The notes under the pieces: generated by a model
The model's database searches: none
Told to the model about the DNA's origin: nothing
The model's input: the letters and a program-made list of their open reading frames with translations, nothing else
From: a virus
Length of the DNA stretch: 21,958 nucleotides
Reading direction: 5' to 3' (one strand)
Virus record (IMG/VR): IMGVR_UViG_3300032282_005941
Location: 1 to 21,958 of that record
Program-made: the position numbers and the translations under genes
In this document: positions 1 through 20,525 of the stretch, piece after piece
Layout: every line of letters begins with the position of its first letter
Position numbering within the stretch: position 1 is the stretch's first letter

Positions 1-564
1 ATCCCTGTGGTGGCACTGTATCACCCAGTCCAGGTGCTAATGGAGCCTCAGAACCAATACCTATTTAAGCTGGATATCCAGAACGGTATTGAGACCTACT
101 ATAACAAGCGTGGGACCGATTCAGAGTTCGCTTGGGAGATGTTAGATACGGTTGAGAAGTTAAATAAGCTATCTGAATACAAGGACTCCGATGTGGCGGT
201 AGACATTGAAACCACCGGGCTGGACTTCCTCAAGGATGAGATACAGACTGTAGCCCTGAGCTTTAATCATAAAGGGAAGCTAGTTACCTTTACAGTTCCA
301 ATGTATCACAAGGAATTCGCTCACCCGGACGGATGGATTTCTACGGTAAATAAACTTTTGAGTGAAATCTTTACCAATGACTTAACACGGAAGATATTCC
401 ACAAGGCACAATTTGATACAAAGTTCTTGGCTAGGCAGGGTCTGTCTGATATAAGGAACATCTACGATACCAAGCTCATGCAGCATATGGTGGACGAGAA
501 TCTTCCGAAGAGCCTCAAGGATTTGGTATCCTACTACTTCCCCAACGAGCAGGGTGTAATCTAA
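1..564 (+). CDS. DNA polymerase piece 1: UDG-like C-terminus plus 3'-5' exonuclease motifs I/II (partial at left edge)
   Basis: The frame is open to the left edge, so the true start lies outside the window; the GTG at 7 is only the first internal start-type codon (residue 1 here). Residues 3-35 (ALYHPVQVLMEPQ and following) resemble the end of a family 4 uracil-DNA glycosylase with its catalytic HP motif. A linker follows, then a DnaQ-like exonuclease domain: ExoI DIETTGLD (Asp66, Glu68) and ExoII HKAQFDTKFL (Asp137). The usual ExoII Asn is Lys133. The protein stops at VSYYFPNEQGVI, before ExoIII, and the rest of the domain is in the next frame. A UDG-like domain fused to a PolA-type polymerase is known from SPO1-like phages. 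Expected role: proofreading subunit or domain of the replicative polymerase. The UDG assignment rests on about 30 residues and is less certain than the exonuclease assignment. Confidence 0.8.
   Translation: MPVVALYHPVQVLMEPQNQYLFKLDIQNGIETYYNKRGTDSEFAWEMLDTVEKLNKLSEYKDSDVAVDIETTGLDFLKDEIQTVALSFNHKGKLVTFTVPMYHKEFAHPDGWISTVNKLLSEIFTNDLTRKIFHKAQFDTKFLARQGLSDIRNIYDTKLMQHMVDENLPKSLKDLVSYYFPNEQGVI
551..556 (+). promoter_or_regulatory. Ribosome-binding site for polymerase piece 2
   Basis: AGGGTG lies 7 nt before the ATG at 564, inside the end of piece 1. It supports genuine re-initiation at the TAATG overlap rather than a dead frameshift. The match to AGGAGG is partial. Confidence 0.4.
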
Positions 565-1073
565 TGTTAGGTCAAGACGGCAAAAAGACAGACTGGAAGA
601 ACATGCCACTGCCAACGATGGCAAGGGGCAATGCTCTTGATGCTTACTTCACCATGAAGGTCTTTCAGAAGCTAGAGAAAAGAATCTCTGAGCTTAAGAT
701 GGCCAACCTCTATGATAAGCTCATGGTTCCAGCGGTCGAGTTCTTCAAGACCATGGAGCTTGACGGTCTTTTGATATCGGGTAGCAAGGTAAACGAACTG
801 GGGGTCTTGCTGAAGGATGATATCCTTAATAACGAGGATAGATTGTATTCCTTCAAAGAAGTAGATAAGACTCTAGAGCTTACCTCTACCGATGACCTAA
901 CTCGTATATTATATTCTTGCGATAAGAAGAAGAATATTGTAGAAGGTGGGTTCAACCTGTATCCCCCGATCACCTCGGAGAAGACTGGTGCCCCAAGCAC
1001 AAGCGCAGAAGCATTGGATATATTATTAGAACAACTTGAAGAAGAAATCAACCGCAGAGGTCTAAATGAATAG
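564..1073 (+). CDS. DNA polymerase piece 2: ExoIII region and thumb
   Basis: This 169-residue protein starts at the TAATG overlap with piece 1, in the -1 frame. Residues 6-36 (KKTDW, then MPLPTMARGNALDAYF) match the end of a PolA 3'-5' exonuclease domain; Asp26 is the likely ExoIII aspartate. The tyrosine normally four residues earlier is Gly22. The middle (NLYDKLMVPAVEFFKTMELDGLLI) matches the start of the PolA polymerase domain (pl..vl..mE..Gi.v). Near the end, SEKTGAPSTSAEALDILL is the PolA thumb motif (kTgaPSTd...L). It therefore bridges exonuclease and palm in a normal PolA chain and has no complete domain of its own. It overlaps piece 3 by 8 bp. It may be a separate subunit, or a segment joined by an unseen mechanism or an assembly error. 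Confidence 0.75.
   Translation: MLGQDGKKTDWKNMPLPTMARGNALDAYFTMKVFQKLEKRISELKMANLYDKLMVPAVEFFKTMELDGLLISGSKVNELGVLLKDDILNNEDRLYSFKEVDKTLELTSTDDLTRILYSCDKKKNIVEGGFNLYPPITSEKTGAPSTSAEALDILLEQLEEEINRRGLNE
1056..1060 (+). promoter_or_regulatory. Ribosome-binding site for polymerase piece 3
   Basis: AGAGG lies 5 nt before the ATG at 1066, inside the coding end of piece 2. It is a good Shine-Dalgarno match at suitable spacing, which favours independent translation of the palm/fingers polypeptide. Confidence 0.5.
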
Positions 1074-2154
1074 GTTTGAGAAGCTTGAACTTGAGAAGCA
1101 GATATCACAGTCTGCTATTAGATCTCTAAGCGACGCCAACGTCGTGAACGCTAGAGATTTCATCAAGGGTCTACTGGACTACAGAAGATCCAAGAAGCTC
1201 TATGATACCTATATCTCAGGTGTTAAGGAGGCAATGCAATATAATGGATCAGACAGGATTTACGTGGAGTATCGTCTCGATGGGACTGTCACTGGACGAC
1301 TCAGCAACGCTGGGTATGAAGCTGGCGACAATAGAATGGGTATATCATTTCATACTCTGCCCCGAGAGACGAAGTTCAATATTCGTGAATATGTTGTGGC
1401 TCCCAAGGGCTACAAGTTTATAACCGCAGATATGAAGAGCATGGAACTCCGAGTTCTAGCTCACTTAGCCAAGGAGAAGAACATGGCTAAGGCATTCAAT
1501 GATCGCATGGACCTGCATACGTATTCTGCTTCTATGACGTTCGGTAAGCCTATGGAAAAGGTAACAAAGGAGGAACGTCAGATTGCTAAGGAAGTTAGCT
1601 TCTTAACGGTCTACGGTGGAACGGAGAAGACGCTAGCTATGAAACGTGGTATTAGCTTCAAGAAAGCGAAGGGTATTATAGATGGCTGGATGGCTGCATT
1701 CCCAGGTGTTCCCAGATACATGGAACATGTTCAGAACTTTATTAATAGTAACAAGTATGCCTATACTATCTTTGGGCGTCGTCGCAATCTACCGAATGCT
1801 GCGTCCGAAGCTAAGTATATTCGGCAAGAAGCTTTTAGGCAGGGACTGAACTTTACGGTCCAGTCATCAGCCAGTGATACTCTAGTCTGCTGTATCCTAG
1901 GGCTGAATCAGGATCTAAAGCGGAAGAAAATGGGTGCCAAGATAATCGCAACGGTCCACGACTCCATAGAGTTGATTGCACCAATCGACCAAGTAGACGA
2001 GACCATCGCATTACTCTACCACCATATGGTTAACTACCCTTATATTAAGGAGAACTTCAATTTTGAGTTCTCAGTGCCGATGGAAGTGGAAGTGGTAGTT
2101 GGTGATTCTTTTGGCTCAGGCCAAGAGTATCATCTCAGCAATCCCACTTCCTAA
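1066..2154 (+). CDS. polA: DNA polymerase piece 3: family A palm and fingers (catalytic core)
   Basis: This 362-residue protein holds the catalytic part of a family A DNA polymerase. In order: DGTVTGRLS (canonical TaTGRLSS), NIREYVVAPKGYKF, motif A TADMKSMELRVLAH (canonical aDYSQIELR; the metal-binding Asp is kept), motif B RQIAKEVSFLTVYGG (R-x3-K-x3-F-x3-YG, with Phe at the position that disfavours dideoxynucleotides), GRRRNLPNA, NFTVQSSASD (Q-motif) and motif C ATVHDSIEL. Motif C reads HDS where most family members have HDE. It starts inside piece 2 with its own Shine-Dalgarno sequence. The first 40 residues are a charged helical linker without clear PolA match. There is no 5'-3' exonuclease domain, as is usual in phages. 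The last 20 bp overlap tail-to-tail with the minus-strand gene. Confidence 0.92.
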   Translation: MNRFEKLELEKQISQSAIRSLSDANVVNARDFIKGLLDYRRSKKLYDTYISGVKEAMQYNGSDRIYVEYRLDGTVTGRLSNAGYEAGDNRMGISFHTLPRETKFNIREYVVAPKGYKFITADMKSMELRVLAHLAKEKNMAKAFNDRMDLHTYSASMTFGKPMEKVTKEERQIAKEVSFLTVYGGTEKTLAMKRGISFKKAKGIIDGWMAAFPGVPRYMEHVQNFINSNKYAYTIFGRRRNLPNAASEAKYIRQEAFRQGLNFTVQSSASDTLVCCILGLNQDLKRKKMGAKIIATVHDSIELIAPIDQVDETIALLYHHMVNYPYIKENFNFEFSVPMEVEVVVGDSFGSGQEYHLSNPTS

Positions 2155-12204: not shown

Positions 12205-12236
12205 CATATGTATTACTGACTATAATGATACATATG
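12205..12236 (+). promoter_or_regulatory. Promoter inside a 9-bp inverted repeat, upstream of the glycan island
   Basis: CATATGTAT (12205-12213) and ATACATATG (12228-12236) are perfect inverted copies with 14 nt between. TATAAT (12221-12226) lies in the loop, and the second arm ends in the start ATG at 12234. No good -35 box is seen (the position falls in the terminator T-run). The predicted transcript starts at about 12233. The repeat could be an operator or a hairpin hiding the start codon in read-through mRNA. Confidence 0.55.
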
Positions 12237-13430
12237 TCAGATAAATTAAAAATATTAGTTGTTAATCCAAACACAGGCGGATGTGCATATTACAGAAGCT
12301 TGATGCCTTACCATAAGTTACAAGAGCTTTACCCTGATAAGGTTGAAATTAAATTTGATGATAACCCATTAAAGCTTGATGTAAAGACGGGAAAATTTGA
12401 GTATCCTGGTGCAGAAAATGATGAGGCTCCTGAGGATATTAAATGGGCCGATGTTGTATTGATAAATAACATCAGTAACTACGGAGGACCATATACCGCC
12501 AGAGTTCAAGGCATAGCATTAAAGGCGGGTAAGTTTGTTCACTTTGATACTGATGATTTATTAACTGAGCTTTACGAAGAGCATCACTTAATAGATGTAT
12601 ATAAAAATCAGGGTCTTAGTGATTTAACAAAACACTTATATTATAATTCTCATTTGGTTACGGTGACTCAAACTAAATTTGCTGAAAGAATAAAGCCATA
12701 TTGTAGAAATATTTTAGCTATAATTAAGAACTCTATAGATTATAATTTACCTTGTTGGAACCACCCCAAGACAAAGACTAAGTATGTTAAGGTTGGGTGG
12801 GCTGGTGGAATTCACCATAATCCTGACGTTAAAATTTTCTCCGCAGTCCCACACTTAGTAAATCAAAAAATAGGTAGAGAAAATATTTTTTGGGATTTTT
12901 ATGGGATGCCTCCACCCCCAAAAGATGAAAAAGAAAAGGCTGATTGGCAAAATAAAGTTTGGGATCATTATAAAGCTGAGTTGCTAAAAGGATTTAAAGG
13001 ACAAAGAAATTGGAATACTCATTATGCAGTAGGACCTCATGAGTATGGAATATTCTATGCCAATATGGATATTGCAATAGCCCCATTAAAGATGAACCCA
13101 TTTAATGATTCCAAGTCAGATATTAAAGTAGCCGAGGCCGGACGCTACAAAGTGCCTATAATAGCTTCAAATGTCGGCTGCTACAGTGACACCATCCAGA
13201 ATGGGAAGACTGGTTACTTGATAGATCCAGATGCTCCAAAGACTGAGTGGGTTAGACTGATCAGCAAAGTTGCGACAGATCATAAGTTGAGACGAGAAAT
13301 GGGCGAAAATCTTCATGCAATAACTGAAGAAATGTTTGATACAAATAAAGTAGTAAAGTTTAGATTAAATATTTATAAACAAGCATTTGAAGCTCTTAAG
13401 TGGAATATAGGAAGAGAAATTAATATATGA
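12234..13430 (+). CDS. Glycosyltransferase, GT-B fold (GT4-like)
   Basis: This protein of about 398 residues transfers a sugar from an activated donor, probably to surface or virion glycans. The N-terminal half has ILVVNPNTGGCAYYRSLMPYHKL, the acceptor-domain start seen in GT4-like phage and bacterial enzymes, and FVHFDTDDLL. The C-terminal half has VGWAGGIHHNPDV (donor-domain entry), IAPLKMNPFNDSKSDIKVAEAG and VPIIASNVGCY...GKTGYLI, the GT4 E-x7-E region. An in-frame ATG at 12225 overlaps the -10 box TATAAT, so the ATG at 12234 (MSDKLKILV) is chosen. There is no Shine-Dalgarno sequence. It is first in the island, overlapping the next gene by ATGA. Bases 13131-13190 are markedly GC-richer than the flanks. 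Confidence 0.85.
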   Translation: MSDKLKILVVNPNTGGCAYYRSLMPYHKLQELYPDKVEIKFDDNPLKLDVKTGKFEYPGAENDEAPEDIKWADVVLINNISNYGGPYTARVQGIALKAGKFVHFDTDDLLTELYEEHHLIDVYKNQGLSDLTKHLYYNSHLVTVTQTKFAERIKPYCRNILAIIKNSIDYNLPCWNHPKTKTKYVKVGWAGGIHHNPDVKIFSAVPHLVNQKIGRENIFWDFYGMPPPPKDEKEKADWQNKVWDHYKAELLKGFKGQRNWNTHYAVGPHEYGIFYANMDIAIAPLKMNPFNDSKSDIKVAEAGRYKVPIIASNVGCYSDTIQNGKTGYLIDPDAPKTEWVRLISKVATDHKLRREMGENLHAITEEMFDTNKVVKFRLNIYKQAFEALKWNIGREINI

Positions 13431-14161
13431 AAACTTTTAAACATTCTGGAGATTTAGGGGACATCATTTATAGTTTACCAACTATAAGGGCATTAGGTGG
13501 TGGAGTTCTCTATTTAGATCCTACTGGAGGTGCATCAGATCCTTATATAAAAAAACAATGTATTGATGGTAGAACTAGGTTAGTGAAAGATACTATTGAT
13601 TTTATTTCACCAATAATTAAATCTCAACCTTATATTAAGGATGTTAAATATTGGGAAGGTGAACATGTAACTTTTAATCTAGATGAATTTAGACAAAAAT
13701 TTAATGATCCTTATAGAAGAAGTAAAACTTCAAACTTAGCTGATCTTCATCTGGAGCAATTTAAGTTACCCTTTTCTGAAGTTGAAAAGCCTTGGCTAGA
13801 GGTAGATGGTGATATAAAACTTGATAGAAAAATGATTGTATCTAGATCACCCCGTGTTCAAGGTGGGTTTGGATGGTTAAATGCTAATAAATTCGTTTTA
13901 AGAGATCAGGCAATTTTTGTAGGAATACCAAAAGAACATGAATTTTTTGAATGGACTTTTGGAATTGAAATTCCATATTACAAAACAGATACTGTTATTG
14001 AACTTGCTAAAGTTATAAAAGGATCTGAAATATTTATTGGAAATTCAAGTTTTGCACTATCATTAGCTATAGGTATGGGACACCCAAGAATAATGCAGGA
14101 AGTAGATCCAAAAGTCCCAACTACAGTGTTTGATAATTTAAGAAATATTAATTATTTCTAA
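13427..14161 (+). CDS. GT9/heptosyltransferase-like protein
   Basis: This 244-residue protein starts with FKHSGDLGDIIYSLPTIRAL, the glycine-rich entry loop (GDiiys.P.ir.L) of GT9-like enzymes. Near the C-terminus, VIELAKVIKGSEIFIGNSSFALSLAIGMGHPRI matches the GT9 donor-site pattern (a..li.ad..ig.dSg..hlA.a.g.P.i), with Asn-Ser-Ser in place of Asp-Ser-Gly. At 244 residues it is shorter than a full heptosyltransferase (about 320-350). The second domain core is reduced, so activity is uncertain. It overlaps the preceding glycosyltransferase by ATGA and is 2 nt before the next gene. Confidence 0.7.
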   Translation: MKTFKHSGDLGDIIYSLPTIRALGGGVLYLDPTGGASDPYIKKQCIDGRTRLVKDTIDFISPIIKSQPYIKDVKYWEGEHVTFNLDEFRQKFNDPYRRSKTSNLADLHLEQFKLPFSEVEKPWLEVDGDIKLDRKMIVSRSPRVQGGFGWLNANKFVLRDQAIFVGIPKEHEFFEWTFGIEIPYYKTDTVIELAKVIKGSEIFIGNSSFALSLAIGMGHPRIMQEVDPKVPTTVFDNLRNINYF

Positions 14162-14163
14162 TC

Positions 14164-15090
14164 ATGAAAAATATAATAGTTAGATTTGAAGGTGGCATAG
14201 GTGATTGTTTATTAGCTAATAGGTTCCTTTTTGCAATAAAGGAAGCGCACCCCGATTCAAATATTAAAGTAGCATTTGATACTGGTGTAAATAATAAGCA
14301 AGAAAAGTTAATGAAGCATTTGTGGCCTTCTACTTATGTAAATACTTATACTATTGGGGAAAAACTAAATCCTCAATTTATAACTAAAAATAATGAAGGA
14401 AGAAATGTTAATTACGTAAATCATCCTGATAATTTACCCAATAAATTTAAGGAAGATATAAAAAGTTCCGATATTTTTTATGATTTACACATAGCATCAT
14501 TAAAGTTTTTTAAGTACGATATCCCATGGATGAAGTATTACTGGTATTTTCCAAAACCAGAAGTAGTAACTGAATATAAAGGAAAATTACCTGAAAAATT
14601 TATATTAGTTCATTTTTATCCAAGACCAGATAGTTTTCATAGTTTAGATCAGAGCCAAGCAATAAATTTAATTAATGAATTAAAGAAAATATTACCTGTA
14701 GTTATTATATGTGAAGAAAAATATTTTGATTGGTATAAAGGATGCTCAGAATGGATTATTGATCCAAAGATAGAGGAGATTTTTTATATAGCTTCTAAGT
14801 GTGAAATATTCGTGGGAGCAGATTCATCAATTAGATATATTCCTCTTCATTTTGGAAAAGCATCATTTGTTCTTTCAAAACATTGCCAAGAGCCATTCAG
14901 GCTTGATAAAATTAATTTACATCATTTATGTAGATGGTCACTTTATAGAAATCTAACTTTACCAGCTAATATAATTCCTGAAATAATGGGTATTATAGCA
15001 TCAAATATTGTAAAAAATAAAGGATATTTTCTATTCCCAGAAATAGGCGGTAATTTAGAGTCAATTATTGGAGACCAAAATTTGCCATGA
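14164..15090 (+). CDS. GT9/heptosyltransferase-like protein
   Basis: This 308-residue protein has two GT-B style halves. NIIVRFEGGIGDCLLANRFLFAIKEAHPDSNIKVAF is a typical GT9-like N-terminus (GgiGD.l.a.p...ai...p...i.v). PEKFILVHFYPRPDSFHSLDQ begins the donor domain, and EIFYIASKCEIFVGADSSIRYIPLHFGKASFVLS contains the aDSs..h.a...gk..v pattern. Activity and sugar are unknown. It has no Shine-Dalgarno sequence, starts 2 nt after the preceding stop, and ends in an ATGA overlap with the GT17-like gene. Codon use is strongly AT-biased, like its neighbours. Confidence 0.7.
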   Translation: MKNIIVRFEGGIGDCLLANRFLFAIKEAHPDSNIKVAFDTGVNNKQEKLMKHLWPSTYVNTYTIGEKLNPQFITKNNEGRNVNYVNHPDNLPNKFKEDIKSSDIFYDLHIASLKFFKYDIPWMKYYWYFPKPEVVTEYKGKLPEKFILVHFYPRPDSFHSLDQSQAINLINELKKILPVVIICEEKYFDWYKGCSEWIIDPKIEEIFYIASKCEIFVGADSSIRYIPLHFGKASFVLSKHCQEPFRLDKINLHHLCRWSLYRNLTLPANIIPEIMGIIASNIVKNKGYFLFPEIGGNLESIIGDQNLP

Positions 15091-15908
15091 AAATTATAGA
15101 TTGTTTTCCATTTTTTAATGAATTAGATATTCTTAAAATTAGACTTGAAGAACTATACGATCACGTTGATTATTTTGTGTTAGTGGAAGCTTCAAAAACT
15201 CAATCTTTAATAGATAAACCATTTTATTTTGAAAAAAACAAAAAGGAATATTCTAAATTTTTAAATAAAATAATTCATGTAAAAGTAGAAGACTGTCCAA
15301 GTAATTCATATACTTGGGAAATGGAAAATTTCCAAAGAAATTGTATTTTGAGGGGATTAAGTAAAGTTTCTGAATTACATTCAGATGATGTAGTTTTAAT
15401 ATCTGATTTGGATGAAATACCCTCTTCAAAATCAATAAAATTAATAAGAGAGTCTGGTCTTTCCTACGGGTCTATAAACATGAGTTTTCATGCTTATTAC
15501 TTTAATATGGTAGCAAAAAGACCTTGGATAGGAACAGTTTTTTGTAAGGCTCGTTTATTAGAAAATAATACTCCACAACAATTTAGAAAACTTAAAGATT
15601 CTTTAGCCCTGTTAGATGGAGGGAAGATATTGGGTTGGCACCTGAGTTGGATGGGAGGATGCAGGAGAATTTGGGAAAAATCTCATTCTTGCATAGAGCC
15701 TTTTGATAAGTCTAAAATACCTCCTTATGAGGAATTTGAAAAGCAATTTTTTGACTTGATATCCAGAAATAAATTCATTCACATAGAAGATTTATCTAAG
15801 AACGGGGAATCTTTCTGTATTGATAATGATGTAAACTTTCCATCATTAGTAATTAGTAAATCAAATATATTTGTAAAATATTTTTTTAGAGGAAACAATG
15901 AACAATAA
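15087..15908 (+). CDS. Glycosyltransferase family 17-like (beta-1,4-GlcNAc transferase type)
   Basis: This 273-residue protein has the full GT17 pattern: IIDCFPFFNELDILKIRLEEL (3-23), VDYFVLVEASKTQS (27-40), KIIHVKVEDC (61-70), WEMENFQRNCILRGL (77-91) and VVLISDLDEIPS (102-113), with the metal-binding DxD at Asp107-Asp109. WHLSWMGG follows in the acceptor region. GT17 contains the eukaryotic bisecting-GlcNAc transferase MGAT3, but bacterial and phage members transfer other residues, so the sugar is not predicted. Its ORF overlaps the next gene by 11 bp, and AGAGGA in its 3' end is the Shine-Dalgarno sequence for that gene. Confidence 0.82.
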   Translation: MKIIDCFPFFNELDILKIRLEELYDHVDYFVLVEASKTQSLIDKPFYFEKNKKEYSKFLNKIIHVKVEDCPSNSYTWEMENFQRNCILRGLSKVSELHSDDVVLISDLDEIPSSKSIKLIRESGLSYGSINMSFHAYYFNMVAKRPWIGTVFCKARLLENNTPQQFRKLKDSLALLDGGKILGWHLSWMGGCRRIWEKSHSCIEPFDKSKIPPYEEFEKQFFDLISRNKFIHIEDLSKNGESFCIDNDVNFPSLVISKSNIFVKYFFRGNNEQ

Positions 15909-16455
15909 TAACAAGGTTGTATTTGAAGTTGGAGTTGGGAATCCTTATATATGTAGAACTAGACTTTTGATGGGTTCTGAAGTAAAATTACATTTATTTG
16001 AACCAAATATAACTACATATAAAAATTTAGTAAATTTTTATGGTCATTATTCTAATGTTACTATTCATAATATAGCATTATTTGATAGGGACGGAGAAAT
16101 TTTATTTTCTGATGATGGAGATTCTTCCTTTGTTTCTGAAGTAATGTCTCCAACGAAGTTTAACTCTTCAGATATAGCTGAGAGTAAAAATAAATATATT
16201 GTTCCTTGTAGATCAATTAAACACTATGATAATGGGGATATTGATTTATTGTTAGTTGACACAGAGGGTAGTGAGTGGATGATTTTAAAAAATCTTGTTA
16301 GTAGACCTGATGAGATAGTTTTAGAGACTCATAACTCAGAGTCTGGATACGTTAATCCACACTTACAAGAAATAAATGACTGGATGTCAAATAATAATTA
16401 TGTGTTAACTAGAAAAAATGAATCAGATTCTTTTTTTAAGAAAATTAAGGTGTAG
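15898..16455 (+). CDS. FkbM-type methyltransferase 1
   Basis: This 185-residue SAM-dependent methyltransferase is probably an O-methylase of sugars. VVFEVGVGNPY (7-17) is the SAM-binding motif I. LHLFEPNITTYKNL is the acidic motif II region (fEP....), and NVTIHNIALFDRDGEILF is typical FkbM. DLLLVDTEGSEWMILKNL is the conserved D.EG.E..vL motif, followed by VLETH. It is slightly short for the family, with a brief N-terminus before motif I. AGAGGA 4 nt before the ATG is a good ribosome-binding site. It is paired with a second FkbM gene directly downstream (3 nt gap). Confidence 0.82.
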   Translation: MNNNNKVVFEVGVGNPYICRTRLLMGSEVKLHLFEPNITTYKNLVNFYGHYSNVTIHNIALFDRDGEILFSDDGDSSFVSEVMSPTKFNSSDIAESKNKYIVPCRSIKHYDNGDIDLLLVDTEGSEWMILKNLVSRPDEIVLETHNSESGYVNPHLQEINDWMSNNNYVLTRKNESDSFFKKIKV

Positions 16456-16458
16456 AAA

Positions 16459-17115
16459 ATGAATATTGAATTTTATTCTTATGATAAATTTATAAAACCT
16501 GGAGATGTCGTTTACGATATTGGTGCTCACGAAGGAGAGATGAGCGTTAGTTTTTTAAATAAAGGAGCAAAAATTGTATATGCTTTCGAACCATCTCCAT
16601 TAAATCTTCCACAGTTAAAAGCCACAAGTTTACTTCATAGCTCTATAAAAATTTGTGATGTTGCTCTCCATGAAAAAGAGTATTCCTGCGTTACGAGATT
16701 CAGGGATTGTAAGCGTGGTGCTCCCCTCGACCAAGAGCAAAGTATAACATACGTGATACTTCAAAATTATATAAAGAACAATAACCTGGAGCTTCCAGAT
16801 TTTATAAAAATGGATATTGAAGGGATGGAAAGTATAATTTTGAAAGGTTTCGAATTTCTATTTCTAGGAAAACGTCCAATAATATTTGTAGAGATTCACG
16901 CCGCACCCAAAGACGAACGACAAAGCTACACTGACAATCCACACTGGGTATGGCCTGAAGACGGTGGATTTGATTTCAATAGTATAAAACAATATAACTA
17001 CGTATATATGAACGAGTTTGCTCAAATAGTCAGCAATGATGAAAACCTCAATCCCTCAGTAAAGCAACACAAGGGTTGTGTATTGATACCAATAGAAAAA
17101 CTTAATTTAGTGTAA
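16459..17115 (+). CDS. FkbM-type methyltransferase 2
   Basis: This 218-residue SAM-dependent methyltransferase is of the same broad family as its neighbour but not a close copy. PGDVVYDIGAHEGEMSVSFL (motif I, D.GAh.G), IVYAFEPSPLNLPQL (motif II), IKICDVALHEKE, PDFIKMDIEGMESIILKGFEFLF (kmDiEG.E..vl.G) and PIIFVEIHAAP. AAGGTG upstream gives a fair ribosome-binding site. Its 3' third departs in base composition: 16891-16950 has 31 G+C in 60 against 15 in 60 for 16801-16860. That stretch encodes a Trp/Pro-rich segment (NPHWVWPEDGGFDF) outside the core fold. Confidence 0.82.
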   Translation: MNIEFYSYDKFIKPGDVVYDIGAHEGEMSVSFLNKGAKIVYAFEPSPLNLPQLKATSLLHSSIKICDVALHEKEYSCVTRFRDCKRGAPLDQEQSITYVILQNYIKNNNLELPDFIKMDIEGMESIILKGFEFLFLGKRPIIFVEIHAAPKDERQSYTDNPHWVWPEDGGFDFNSIKQYNYVYMNEFAQIVSNDENLNPSVKQHKGCVLIPIEKLNLV

Positions 17116-17121
17116 TATTTT

Positions 17122-17958
17122 ATGAATAACAAAGTAAAAATTTTTGGAGTTAGGATGAGTTTAATTGGTGATTGTATAATGTCATTACCAATATTAGATC
17201 ATCTTAAAACAATATACCCTAACTCCTACATATATTTTTCTTTAGCCAAGAAATGTCAACAAGCAAAATTTTTATTTGAAAACCATCCGAATATAGATGA
17301 AGTAAAAATAAGTGATTATGAGGAAGAATTAGGCCCATCTGATTTTGAAATAATAAAAAATTGCGATATAGTGATAAATCCTAGACCCAACCACCCTTTG
17401 GAGTTTGATTGGTATAACCATAGATCCTGTGTGCAAGAAACATTTATTATGGCTGGATTAGACTTGAAAAATCTTAAAACTTTACCAAAATTAAATCTAC
17501 TCAAGCCTAGGAAAGAATTAAAAAATACTATAGCTTTTTGGCCGTTTGCTGGATATGGAAAAGGAATATCCAGAAGTCCATCGAAAGAGTGGTGGGAAAG
17601 ACTCTTAAGTAGATTTAAAAATTTCCAAATATTTCAATTTGGATCTGAACAAGATCCCCATATTGATACACCAAATCTTATAAGAAATAATCATAAAAAT
17701 TTTGAGCAACAAATATTAGAATCTTTAAATTGTTCTATTATAATAGGGACAGACTCAGGTTCCATGTGGGTCACAGGGGCTTATGGTGTAGCTCCGCAAA
17801 TAAATCTCTTAACTAATTGGTTACCGGGACATTTTAAAAATTTCTCTGCTCTGGCTCCAGAAGGTGAAAAGTGTTACAACTTTTTTGCTCAAGGATCTTG
17901 TGATAACATATCTACGACAGACGTACAAAATAAAATAATTGAACTGATAAATATATGA
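17122..17958 (+). CDS. GT9-type glycosyltransferase (heptosyltransferase-like)
   Basis: This 278-residue protein is the clearest GT9 member here: FGVRMSLIGDCIMSLPILDH (9-28), IYPNSYIYFSLA, ENHPNIDEV, INPRP, then IAFWPFAGYGKGISRSPSKE and EWWERLLSRF (the pF.g.g..r.w....w..l pattern), FQFGSEQD and SIIIGTDSGSMWVTGAYGVAPQINL (the conserved DSG and following helix). GT9 enzymes transfer heptose or related sugars to lipopolysaccharide core. The N-terminal domain is somewhat shortened. Its ORF overlaps the DegT-family gene by ATGA. It has no visible Shine-Dalgarno sequence. Confidence 0.83.
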   Translation: MNNKVKIFGVRMSLIGDCIMSLPILDHLKTIYPNSYIYFSLAKKCQQAKFLFENHPNIDEVKISDYEEELGPSDFEIIKNCDIVINPRPNHPLEFDWYNHRSCVQETFIMAGLDLKNLKTLPKLNLLKPRKELKNTIAFWPFAGYGKGISRSPSKEWWERLLSRFKNFQIFQFGSEQDPHIDTPNLIRNNHKNFEQQILESLNCSIIIGTDSGSMWVTGAYGVAPQINLLTNWLPGHFKNFSALAPEGEKCYNFFAQGSCDNISTTDVQNKIIELINI

Positions 17959-19112
17959 ATAATTTTAATTGGCCTTTAAACGTAAATAATTTTACTTTAG
18001 TTGATAAATTAAAAATTTGCAAGTTTATTTTAAATCCATTAAACAGATGGACACAAGATATTCAAGTTAAAAAATTTGAAGAAAAGTTTGCAAATTATAT
18101 TTCTAAGAAATATTCAGTTTATGTATCAAGTGGATCTACAGCGAACACTTTATTGGCGATGTATTTGAAGGATACTAAACCAAATAAGAAAGTAATTATA
18201 TTTCCATCAACAACTTGGATAACATCTGTATCCCCGTTTCTTAGGGAAGGATTTAGTCCCAAATTTATAGATGTATCACTTAAAGACTTTTCGATGGATC
18301 TGGATTTGTTAGAAATTTATTTGTCAGAATTTTCTGAAAAAGTGGCATGTGTGTTTTTAACTAGCTTATTGGGGTATGTTCCAGATATAGATAGATTAAA
18401 ATTTTTAGAAAAAACATATAATGTAAAAGTGATGCTCGATAATTGTGAAAATACTTTTGGAACATATAATCGTAAAAATGTTTCAAAAGAATTCACTTCT
18501 ACAACAAGCACTTACTTTGGGCACCAGTTACAAAGCATAGAAGGTGGATTTATTTTTACAGATTCTGAGGAAGAGTATAACTATTTCCTTATGGCGAGAA
18601 ACCACGGTATGGTAAGATCCATACCGGGAGATAAGAGTAAATATCAAAACTCTCTGGTAGATCCTAGATTTGACTTCAATATTTTGGGTAATAATTTTAG
18701 AAATACAGATTTAAATGCATTTATAGGTCAATTAGACTTTAAAAGATTAGATAGCTATATCGAAAGAAGATTAGAACTTTATACATTATTTAAAACTAAT
18801 TTGAATTCTGATAAATATGTATTACCTGAAAATTTTGAAAATAGAGTTCATGTCCCATTTTCTTTGCCAATAATTTGCAAAAATAAAGAAGATAAGATTA
18901 AAATTTTAAATTATTGTGATGCTAAAAAAATAGAGACTAGACCTATTATATCTGGTAATTTATTGCGACAAACCTGTTTGAAAAATTATGACAATTTTTC
19001 AAATTACCCTGTAAGTGAATTCTTGAATGAGAATGGGCTTTACATTGGGCTGTATTCAAAATTAAAAAATTCTCAAGTTGAGAATTTGGTAAAGGATTTA
19101 AATAGCATATGA
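17955..19112 (+). CDS. DegT/DnrJ/EryC1/StrS-family enzyme with His in place of the PLP lysine (ColD/RfbH-like)
   Basis: This 385-residue fold-type I PLP/PMP enzyme acts on nucleotide sugars. Marks: YSVYVSSGSTANTLLAMYL (53-71, SGt.Al), FPSTTWITSVSP (83-94), KVMLDNCENTFGT (158-170; Asp162 pairs with the pyridine nitrogen) and TSTYFGHQLQSIEGGFIFT (184-202). In aminotransferases the residue six before the Glu of GEGG is the Schiff-base lysine; here it is His190. That replacement is the mark of ColD and RfbH, which use PMP to remove the 3-hydroxyl, and the DNCE motif also resembles those enzymes. The GDP-mannose dehydratase two genes downstream would supply a ColD substrate. 3-dehydratase activity is inferred; a Lys at another site cannot be excluded. 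Confidence 0.85.
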   Translation: MNNFNWPLNVNNFTLVDKLKICKFILNPLNRWTQDIQVKKFEEKFANYISKKYSVYVSSGSTANTLLAMYLKDTKPNKKVIIFPSTTWITSVSPFLREGFSPKFIDVSLKDFSMDLDLLEIYLSEFSEKVACVFLTSLLGYVPDIDRLKFLEKTYNVKVMLDNCENTFGTYNRKNVSKEFTSTTSTYFGHQLQSIEGGFIFTDSEEEYNYFLMARNHGMVRSIPGDKSKYQNSLVDPRFDFNILGNNFRNTDLNAFIGQLDFKRLDSYIERRLELYTLFKTNLNSDKYVLPENFENRVHVPFSLPIICKNKEDKIKILNYCDAKKIETRPIISGNLLRQTCLKNYDNFSNYPVSEFLNENGLYIGLYSKLKNSQVENLVKDLNSI

Positions 19113-19474
19113 TTAATTTATTAGTTGATGAATGTTTTGCATTCGATTATCTTTCTATATTAGAAGTTAAAAAGAATATGAATCAAGATGAGAATTATGA
19201 TAATTGGATAAATTGTCTAAATTACTTAAAAACTCAATTAGGGGAAAAATGCATAGACATAATAAAATCTAAGGAATATGGGGTATTATACAAAGCAAAC
19301 TTATCCACTTTTGACGCAGTTGCAAAAGCTAGGAGTGGTGGTAATATCACCGCGAAAGAGGTAGATGATTGCAACATGGAAAGATATAATGCAAAAGTAG
19401 CCTTGCAAAAGGTATATTTCCCAGAGAGTGAGGTTACCGAGAGAAAGCTTTCTCCAAAGAAAATAGTGAAGTAA
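19109..19474 (+). CDS. Hypothetical protein, 121 residues, in the sugar cluster
   Basis: This small protein is not recognised. It begins MINLLVDECFAFDYLSILEVK and is predicted helical throughout, with a basic end (VTERKLSPKKIVK). There are no membrane segments or motifs for a known fold. TFDAVAKARSGGNITAKEVDDCN reads like an oligomerisation or partner-binding helix pair. It overlaps the DegT-family gene by ATGA and precedes gmd by 1 nt, so it is made together with both enzymes. Proteins of this general look sit beside sugar-nucleotide genes in other phage and marine bacterial islands, as far as I recall. Confidence 0.65.
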   Translation: MINLLVDECFAFDYLSILEVKKNMNQDENYDNWINCLNYLKTQLGEKCIDIIKSKEYGVLYKANLSTFDAVAKARSGGNITAKEVDDCNMERYNAKVALQKVYFPESEVTERKLSPKKIVK

Positions 19475-19475
19475 T

Positions 19476-20525
19476 ATGAAAAAAGTTATTATAACTGGTG
19501 TAACAGGTCAAGATGGTAGTCTGATGGCAGATTACCTTTTAAATAATTTTGATGATATTGAAGTTTATGGAACTCATAGAAGGCTTAGTGTTCCAAATCA
19601 TGGGAACATAGAGCATTTGCTTGGTAATAAAAGATTCAAAAAAATTGAACTAGATATAACAGATAATGAAAATGTAACTACAATAATACGACAAATTAAG
19701 CCGGATTATTTTATAAATTTTGCTGCAAATTCATTTGTTGGTAACAGTTGGAGAATGCCAATGAATCACTTCCAAAATAATTGCATTTCTGTAATGTATA
19801 TTTTGGAAGCTCTTAAGAATTTTTCACCAAGCACTAGATTTTATAATGCGGGTAGTTCTGAGCAATTTGGTGACGTTGATTATGTTCCCCAAGATATCAA
19901 ACATCCATTCAAGCCAAGATCACCCTATGGAGCCTCAAAATGTGCTGCACACCATCTTGTAAAAGTATACAGAGAGTCCTTTAATATGTTTGCAGTGCAA
20001 GGTATTCTTTTCAATCATGAGGGTATTCGTCGTGGAGAAGAGTTCGTCACCAGAAAAATAACTAAAAAGGTAGCGGAAATAAAATATTCCATTGATTCAA
20101 ATATCCACTTTGATCCATTAGAGTTAGGTAATCTGTATTCAAAGAGAGATTGGAGTGATGCTGAAGATTTTATAGATGGTATTTGGAAAATGTTAAATCA
20201 GCCGAAACCGGTCGATTATGTTTTATCCTCAGGAAAAGCTTATACCATAAAGCAATTTGTTGAAGAAGCTTTCAAAATTGTTAACATAAAAGGAACTTGG
20301 ATCGGTGAGGGATTGAATGAGAAATTCATAAGTACAAATTTAAAATTAAATAAAATTCTTATGGTAATTAATTCTGAATTTTATCGCCCGGCAGAAGTTG
20401 ATTTATTATTAGGTGATAACTCAAAAGCAATAAACGAGTTAGGTTGGAGACCAAAAACTGACTTTAATGAACTTGTAAATAAAATGGTAAAAAATGATTA
20501 CAATAATTTAATTAAATTTAAATAA
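19476..20525 (+). CDS. gmd: GDP-mannose 4,6-dehydratase
   Basis: This 349-residue short-chain dehydrogenase/reductase-fold enzyme converts GDP-mannose to GDP-4-keto-6-deoxymannose, the entry point to GDP-fucose, GDP-rhamnose, perosamine and colitose. Marks: ITGVTGQDGSLMADYLL with the NADP-binding GxxGxxG (8-14), the VYGTHRRLS region, LDITD, NAGSSEQFG (125-132) with the catalytic Ser/Glu, YGASK (Tyr151, Lys155), NHEGIRRGEEFVTRKIT, GNLYSKRDWSDAEDFIDG and FYRPAEVDLLLGD near the end. All are family-diagnostic, and length is normal. It is the last gene of the island. No fucose synthetase, rhamnose reductase or ColC homologue is in the window, so a later step must be host-encoded or elsewhere. Confidence 0.95.
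   Translation: MKKVIITGVTGQDGSLMADYLLNNFDDIEVYGTHRRLSVPNHGNIEHLLGNKRFKKIELDITDNENVTTIIRQIKPDYFINFAANSFVGNSWRMPMNHFQNNCISVMYILEALKNFSPSTRFYNAGSSEQFGDVDYVPQDIKHPFKPRSPYGASKCAAHHLVKVYRESFNMFAVQGILFNHEGIRRGEEFVTRKITKKVAEIKYSIDSNIHFDPLELGNLYSKRDWSDAEDFIDGIWKMLNQPKPVDYVLSSGKAYTIKQFVEEAFKIVNIKGTWIGEGLNEKFISTNLKLNKILMVINSEFYRPAEVDLLLGDNSKAINELGWRPKTDFNELVNKMVKNDYNNLIKFK

Follow-up and report, generated by a model that had tools for sequence, protein, structure and literature searches.

Three ORFs of a family A polymerase

The window, by which we mean the whole stretch of DNA analysed, is a 21,958-base IMG/VR virus record with the polymerase locus in its first 2,154 bases. ORF calling in window 1-2154 gave three plus-strand ORFs, in frames 1, 3 and 1: p1 (1-564), p2 (564-1073) and p3 (1066-2154). 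The window opens inside p1, leaving this ORF open at the 5' end and its start lost at the contig end; what remains encodes the C-terminal end of a uracil-DNA glycosylase (UDG)-like domain and a 3'-5' exonuclease domain that ends between motifs Exo II and Exo III, and matches PF01612 (DNA_pol_A 3'-5' exonuclease family; Pfam, E 9e-15). In relatives, full-length p1 has about 340 aa with a family-4-UDG-like N-terminal domain, and one full-length homologue (L002:4474-5496) has PF03167 UDG together with PF01612. p2 encodes Exo III, the exo/pol linker and the first palm/thumb helices; it had no Pfam match, and it matches the middle of the PHROG 17 'DNA polymerase' profile (E 6.6e-7), between the parts matched by p1 and by p3. 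p3 covers the rest of the thumb, the palm and the fingers, with matches to PF00476 (DNA_pol_A; E 1.5e-73) and to a PDB profile (E 2e-44). An earlier note, made from the sequence alone, had claimed PolA parts in correct order in three frames, and the ORFs and profile matches bear this out: window 1-2154 is confirmed as a family A DNA polymerase encoded as three ORFs.

The catalytic motifs are distributed over the three pieces, all on the plus strand. p1 carries Exo I (DIETTG, 202-219, metal ligands D and E), invariant in alignments, and Exo II (HKAQFD, 400-417, metal ligand D), whose F and D are invariant. Exo III (GNALD, 627-641), aligned with Klenow and phage PolA, is in p2, so that the four acidic metal ligands of the DnaQ-like exonuclease (PF01612) are all kept, three in p1 and one in p2. 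The G, N and D of Exo III are invariant in 35 sequences, but the tyrosine of Y-x3-D (Klenow Y497) is replaced by Gly in all 35 of these split-lineage sequences, while unsplit phage relatives retain Tyr; proofreading may therefore be changed. The family A (PF00476) polymerase motifs, with their catalytic aspartates, are all intact in p3: motif A (DMKSMELR, 1429-1452), invariant and aligned to DYSQIELR; motif B (RQIAKEVSFLTVYGG, 1576-1620), with the R, K, F and Y positions kept; and motif C (VHDSIE, 1954-1971), invariant. In the UDG-like domain, cysteines C15, C18, C93 and C109 are invariant in 27 p1 sequences and match the family 4 UDG iron-sulphur pattern, by analogy with which they may form an iron-sulphur site. 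The family 4 UDG active-site motif GEAPG is not kept in p1, which has VSESF or LSDSF there; we therefore call the domain UDG-like and regard glycosylase activity as doubtful.

With E. coli Pol I (Klenow) and unsplit phage enzymes as alignment references, break 1 mapped to Klenow 473-476, in the exonuclease domain between Exo II and Exo III, and break 2 to Klenow 614, in the thumb. The order p1-p2-p3 follows that of Klenow, namely, exonuclease, palm/thumb, fingers/palm. Around break 2, approximately 38 residues are matched by nothing in the unsplit enzymes of the alignment; these may be a subunit interface. The AlphaFold model of full-length p1 (mean pLDDT 84) matched a family 4 uracil-DNA glycosylase (4zbx, Z 18.5), and its residues 194-341 aligned to Klenow 324-472 (Z 12.0), ending at break 1; predicted structure and sequence agree on the position of this break. 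The last 30 residues of the p1 model were poor alone (pLDDT 38-60), which would be expected of residues that pack on p2. The AlphaFold model of p2 likewise had a mean pLDDT of 84, and matched Bst Pol 421-569 over its whole length (Z 6.4, rmsd 6.4-6.6) and Taq 450-527 with residues 70-159 (Z 7.2, rmsd 2.1-2.2); among the matches listed there were family A polymerases only. Such Z values are low for a helical protein and the fold match is weak alone, but together with sequence and gene order the predicted fold is consistent with a part of a family A polymerase.

Recurrence of both breaks in a viral lineage

Searching viral contigs with each piece, a check that the earlier note had proposed, returned contigs of 58-100% identity with the same layout, and thus the same two breaks in relatives. 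Profile searches found 347 relatives with p3 and 238 with p1, the best 80 being kept in each case. All three pieces were present in 153 fetched loci, and both breaks were shared with the sole exception of L197, although p3 identity among relatives went down to 42%. Some of these loci came from the same contig, and the number with distinct p2 DNA was 106, or 105 without L197. Never among the 153 did p1 and p2 lie in one frame, and p2 and p3 did so once (L197:6235-7077). A continuous frame through 564 and 1066 in relatives, named in advance as the contrary finding, was thus absent from the 153, L197 joining p2 to p3 only. Compared with its nearest relatives, L197 has an indel at the p2/p3 joint near the contig end, and is either a rare natural p2-p3 fusion or an error. 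In three near relatives of the window, p3 was partly lost at contig ends, with both joints kept. Order and strand of p1-p2-p3 were kept in every locus read that had all three pieces.

These data bear on the reading of the locus as an intact gene spoiled by two sequencing or assembly indels, or as a decaying gene. The net frame change of zero and the origin of the record as a metagenome contig favor it, as does L197, whose p2/p3 join does arise from an indel. The same two breaks, however, are found in more than 100 distinct sequences from many samples; this conservation across independent contigs excludes sequencing error, which the earlier note had left possible. Decay is opposed by the intact catalytic motifs, by the whole genes found at joints (below) and by selection: dN/dS was 0.014-0.066 for p1, p2 and p3, each in its own frame (Nei-Gojobori), such that each piece is under strong purifying selection. 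We give indels or decay practically no chance, and conclude that the three-gene split is a real and old arrangement. As a separate observation, synonymous divergence between the window and L002 was 0.32 for p1 and about 0.36 for p2 yet only 0.05 for p3, which suggests a recombination edge near the p2/p3 joint.

In a maximum-likelihood tree of p3 (56 clusters and 13 outgroups), all split members formed one clade with support of 100/99 on a long stem, in a tree where several outgroups had very long branches and unsure positions and where the bootstrap had yet to converge. A T4-type gp23 capsid gene, which lies outside the window, was present in 11 of the 11 relative records tested. Each of the 11 records had a single PF00476 match, and none had a match to PF00136 (family B core); neither PolB nor PolIII alpha was matched in 10 viral relative contigs, which are fragments of 53-111 kb. 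PF02916 (T4 clamp family) had 0 matches in relatives and in controls alike. No complete cultured genome was found, and another polymerase may lie outside these contigs. One 130-kb contig (L145, QCKN01000003.1) of a Prochlorococcus single-cell assembly carries both the split polymerase and gp23, and no other PF00476 gene was found in this assembly. The link to a Prochlorococcus host is weak, no psbA having been found on the contig with the polymerase; the contig may reflect a host link or a co-sorted virus. Elsewhere in the window, a run of ORFs at 12225-20525 appears by eye to encode glycosyltransferase-, heptosyltransferase-, FkbM-like methyltransferase-, aminotransferase- and GDP-mannose dehydratase-like proteins; these may make up a sugar pathway that serves to modify the surface or DNA.

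Joints between the pieces

Both break sites given in the earlier note, TAATG at 564 and an 8-bp ATG overlap at 1066, were confirmed in the sequence. At junction 1 (TAATG, 562-566, plus strand) the p1 stop overlaps the p2 start; TAATG stands at the p2 start in 69 of the 105 distinct relatives, and the p2 start is ATG in 102 of them. At junction 2 (ATGAATAG, 1066-1073, plus strand) the p3 start overlaps the p2 stop by 8 bp, as in 60 of the 105 relatives, with an overlap of 4 bp in a further 17 and ATG, GTG or TTG as the p3 start. These starts were assigned by a nearest-codon rule, with single cases possibly a few codons off. The note's Shine-Dalgarno (SD) candidate before p3 also held up: AGAGG (1056-1060, plus strand) ends five bases before the ATG, and an SD-like 4-mer precedes p3 in 95 of the 105 relatives; before p2 the SD evidence is weak, at 59 of 105. 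In one relative with a TAATG-type joint (L052:3499-3505) the p2 start is seemingly ATC rather than ATG, which may be a rarely used start codon or an error in the sequence.

In many lineages p1 and p2 are separated by 45 bp to 2.3 kb containing stops and genes. The shortest separation is a 45-bp spacer (L006/L010), and whole genes or long spacers lie between intact flanking pieces in L011, L062, L092, L104, L195, L204, L210, L214, L229 and L236. In L011, with a p1 99% identical to the window's, the insert is a 271-aa ORF. A 91-aa ORF that probably encodes a membrane protein occurs in L092, L104, L133, L184, L189 and others. L210 has a family 2 glycosyltransferase at this joint, and L212 and L236 have ORFs nearly identical to it; L096 has a 2OG-Fe(II) oxygenase, and in L062/L083/L201, L195, L204, L214 and L229 the inserted genes are antisense. 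Inserts at the p2/p3 joint were found only in a few, again with flanking pieces intact: L096 has a DUF6445 protein there, and 0.5 kb with a frame that is P-loop nucleotide-kinase-like by eye separates p2 from p3 in L241/L242/L244. A Pfam scan of seven joint ORFs matched the 2OG-Fe(II) oxygenase, DUF6445 and glycosyltransferase, the others having no match.

Small antisense genes were also noticed near the locus. In the window, two small basic proteins are encoded on the minus strand after p3 (2135-2521 and 2511-2747), the first of them matching PHROGs of unknown function. Antisense ORFs of similar appearance, likewise basic, occupy the p1/p2 joint of L062/L201, as though one type of gene were moving from joint to joint. 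Directly 5' of p1, a minus-strand gene that is small-sigma-factor-like by eye is conserved in several relatives, namely L050 (2071-2421), L051 (2108-2467) and L052 (2123-2485).

Programmed -1 and +1 ribosomal frameshifting would instead make one polypeptide from the three frames, and the frame relations are in fact often constant, p2 being offset by 2 from p1 in 79 of the 105 distinct relatives and p3 by 1 from p2 in 83. The offsets nevertheless vary, and it is the start codons that are conserved; no slippery heptamer was noticed by eye at TAATG. Where whole genes lie at joints, frameshifting cannot join the pieces, and this applies to p2/p3 in L096 and L244 as well as to p1/p2 in many lineages. 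Frameshifts had been left possible by the earlier note; the insertions of 45 bp to 2.3 kb exclude them or make them very unlikely at p1/p2, and at the p2/p3 joint of the window they are unlikely but not impossible. Overall we regard frameshifting as highly improbable, and the joints are kept as gene starts, not as shift sites.

Many phage polymerase genes are interrupted by elements that are later removed, such as the intron of SPO1 gp31 and the split intein of MIJ3 PolB, and an intron or split intein might likewise rejoin the pieces here. The window has no room for one because its pieces overlap by 1 and 8 bp, with nothing between. Six relatives with inserts gave no Rfam match at the gathering threshold, and the joint inserts are ordinary genes, which fits neither intron splicing nor frameshifting. 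The probability of such rejoining is, in our estimate, close to nil. A homing endonuclease was considered as the cause of the breaks and rejected, since none was seen in the joint ORFs read, including the seven covered by the non-exhaustive Pfam scan, although an ancient, since lost one is possible.

A three-part polymerase and its precedents

The genes tolerated between p1 and p2 are also what one might expect if the products, though real proteins, were not one enzyme, that is, if p1 were a UDG-exonuclease-like protein on its own and the polymerase were p3, either alone or with p2. Good models of the UDG-like and exonuclease parts were obtained from p1 by itself, which likewise favors this reading. 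p1, however, lacks Exo III, and its last 30 residues do not model well alone; p2 carries Exo III together with the start of the palm/thumb; and the p1-p2-p3 order and strand do not vary among the full loci read. We consider this reading unlikely.

It is instead very probable that p1, p2 and p3 are co-translated cistrons whose products assemble noncovalently into one Klenow-like polymerase. The locus would thus be that of a three-cistron family A (Pol I type) polymerase, belonging to an uncultured tailed phage lineage with T4-type gp23, in which a single mRNA would yield three proteins by stop-start coupling. Translation of p1 would terminate at TAA, with re-initiation on the overlapping AUG to give p2, and p3 would be initiated from its SD and the overlapping start inside the p2 end. 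The three proteins would then bind noncovalently to rebuild the enzyme: p1 would contribute the family-4-UDG-like domain and an exonuclease core with Exo I and II, p2 would complete the exonuclease site with the Exo III Asp and supply the exo/pol connection and first palm/thumb helices, and p3 would bring motifs A, B and C along with the rest of the thumb, palm and fingers. The earlier note's picture of three coupled polypeptides with one break in the exonuclease domain is matched by the same layout in relatives; coupled translation, noncovalent assembly, enzyme activity and the role as replicase are what we infer. More tentatively, the three-part build may itself be functional: p2 would complete the exonuclease site in trans, the amount of re-initiated p2 and p3 would allow the phage to set its proofreading or switch it, and to exchange parts of the polymerase, and the added residues at break 2 would be a subunit interface unknown from other Pol I enzymes. 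We think this unlikely.

Phage replicative polymerases in separate polypeptides have precedents, among them gp43A/gp43B of the T4-related Aeromonas phages 25 and 44RR, whose halves are reported to co-purify and to be active as a polymerase (PMC2988022). That T4-type polymerase, however, is of family B and in two pieces, with a homing endonuclease or untranslated spacer, whereas p1-p2-p3 is of family A and in three pieces, with no homing endonuclease found; a UAAUGA overlap has been described as suggestive of translational coupling (review, PMC2988022). Family A polymerase in separate genes is known from the two-gene MEP401/MEP402 PolA of marine OM43 phages (PMC10580990), but there a small ORF parts the two pieces, the break is near Klenow 699 and not at 473 and 614, and this PolA falls outside the split clade in the p3 tree, on a long branch. 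Rhodothermus phage RM378, reported to have a T4-like capsid protein (PMC4360716), also places exonuclease (Rm378p024) and polymerase (Rm378p092) on different proteins, but its two genes lie 57 kb apart and are cut between domains, whereas p1-p2-p3 is cut inside domains; we rejected RM378 as the same system because its pieces are PolB. Among other essential phage enzymes, the genes-in-pieces NrdA ribonucleotide reductase of Aeh1 is likewise rebuilt from polypeptides of one broken gene, with the mobE homing endonuclease in the break (cited in PMC2988022), although the enzyme is different. Related to p1 across UDG and exonuclease are the unsplit UDG-Exo-PolA of SPO1-type Herelleviridae (SPO1 gp31, LysYB1) and the phiLo polymerase (PDB 9qhs), each of which is instead one polypeptide, that of SPO1 with a group I intron in its gene.

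The passages searched of the Far-T4 genome paper list DNA polymerase among the replication genes and do not mention a split (PMC4360716), and split genes are unmentioned in a survey of virioplankton family A polymerases (PMC6302109). A paper on phage KASIA that speaks of a split into three was set aside, as it concerns the terminase and not the polymerase. Split phage polymerases are thus already known, and we found no published description of a three-gene PolA in the open-access literature.

Textbook Pol I-type polymerases consist of a single chain. A Pol I that is naturally built of three subunits, with an exonuclease site shared by two polypeptides and a thumb cut in two, and that is maintained throughout a divergent phage lineage, would reveal how much breakage a replicative polymerase can bear while staying essential, and its natural breaks would be ready-made split sites for engineered polymerases. 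It also explains why this lineage may be overlooked or split by gene callers and PolA marker surveys, and it allows one to test directly if such splits regulate proofreading or are neutral relics.
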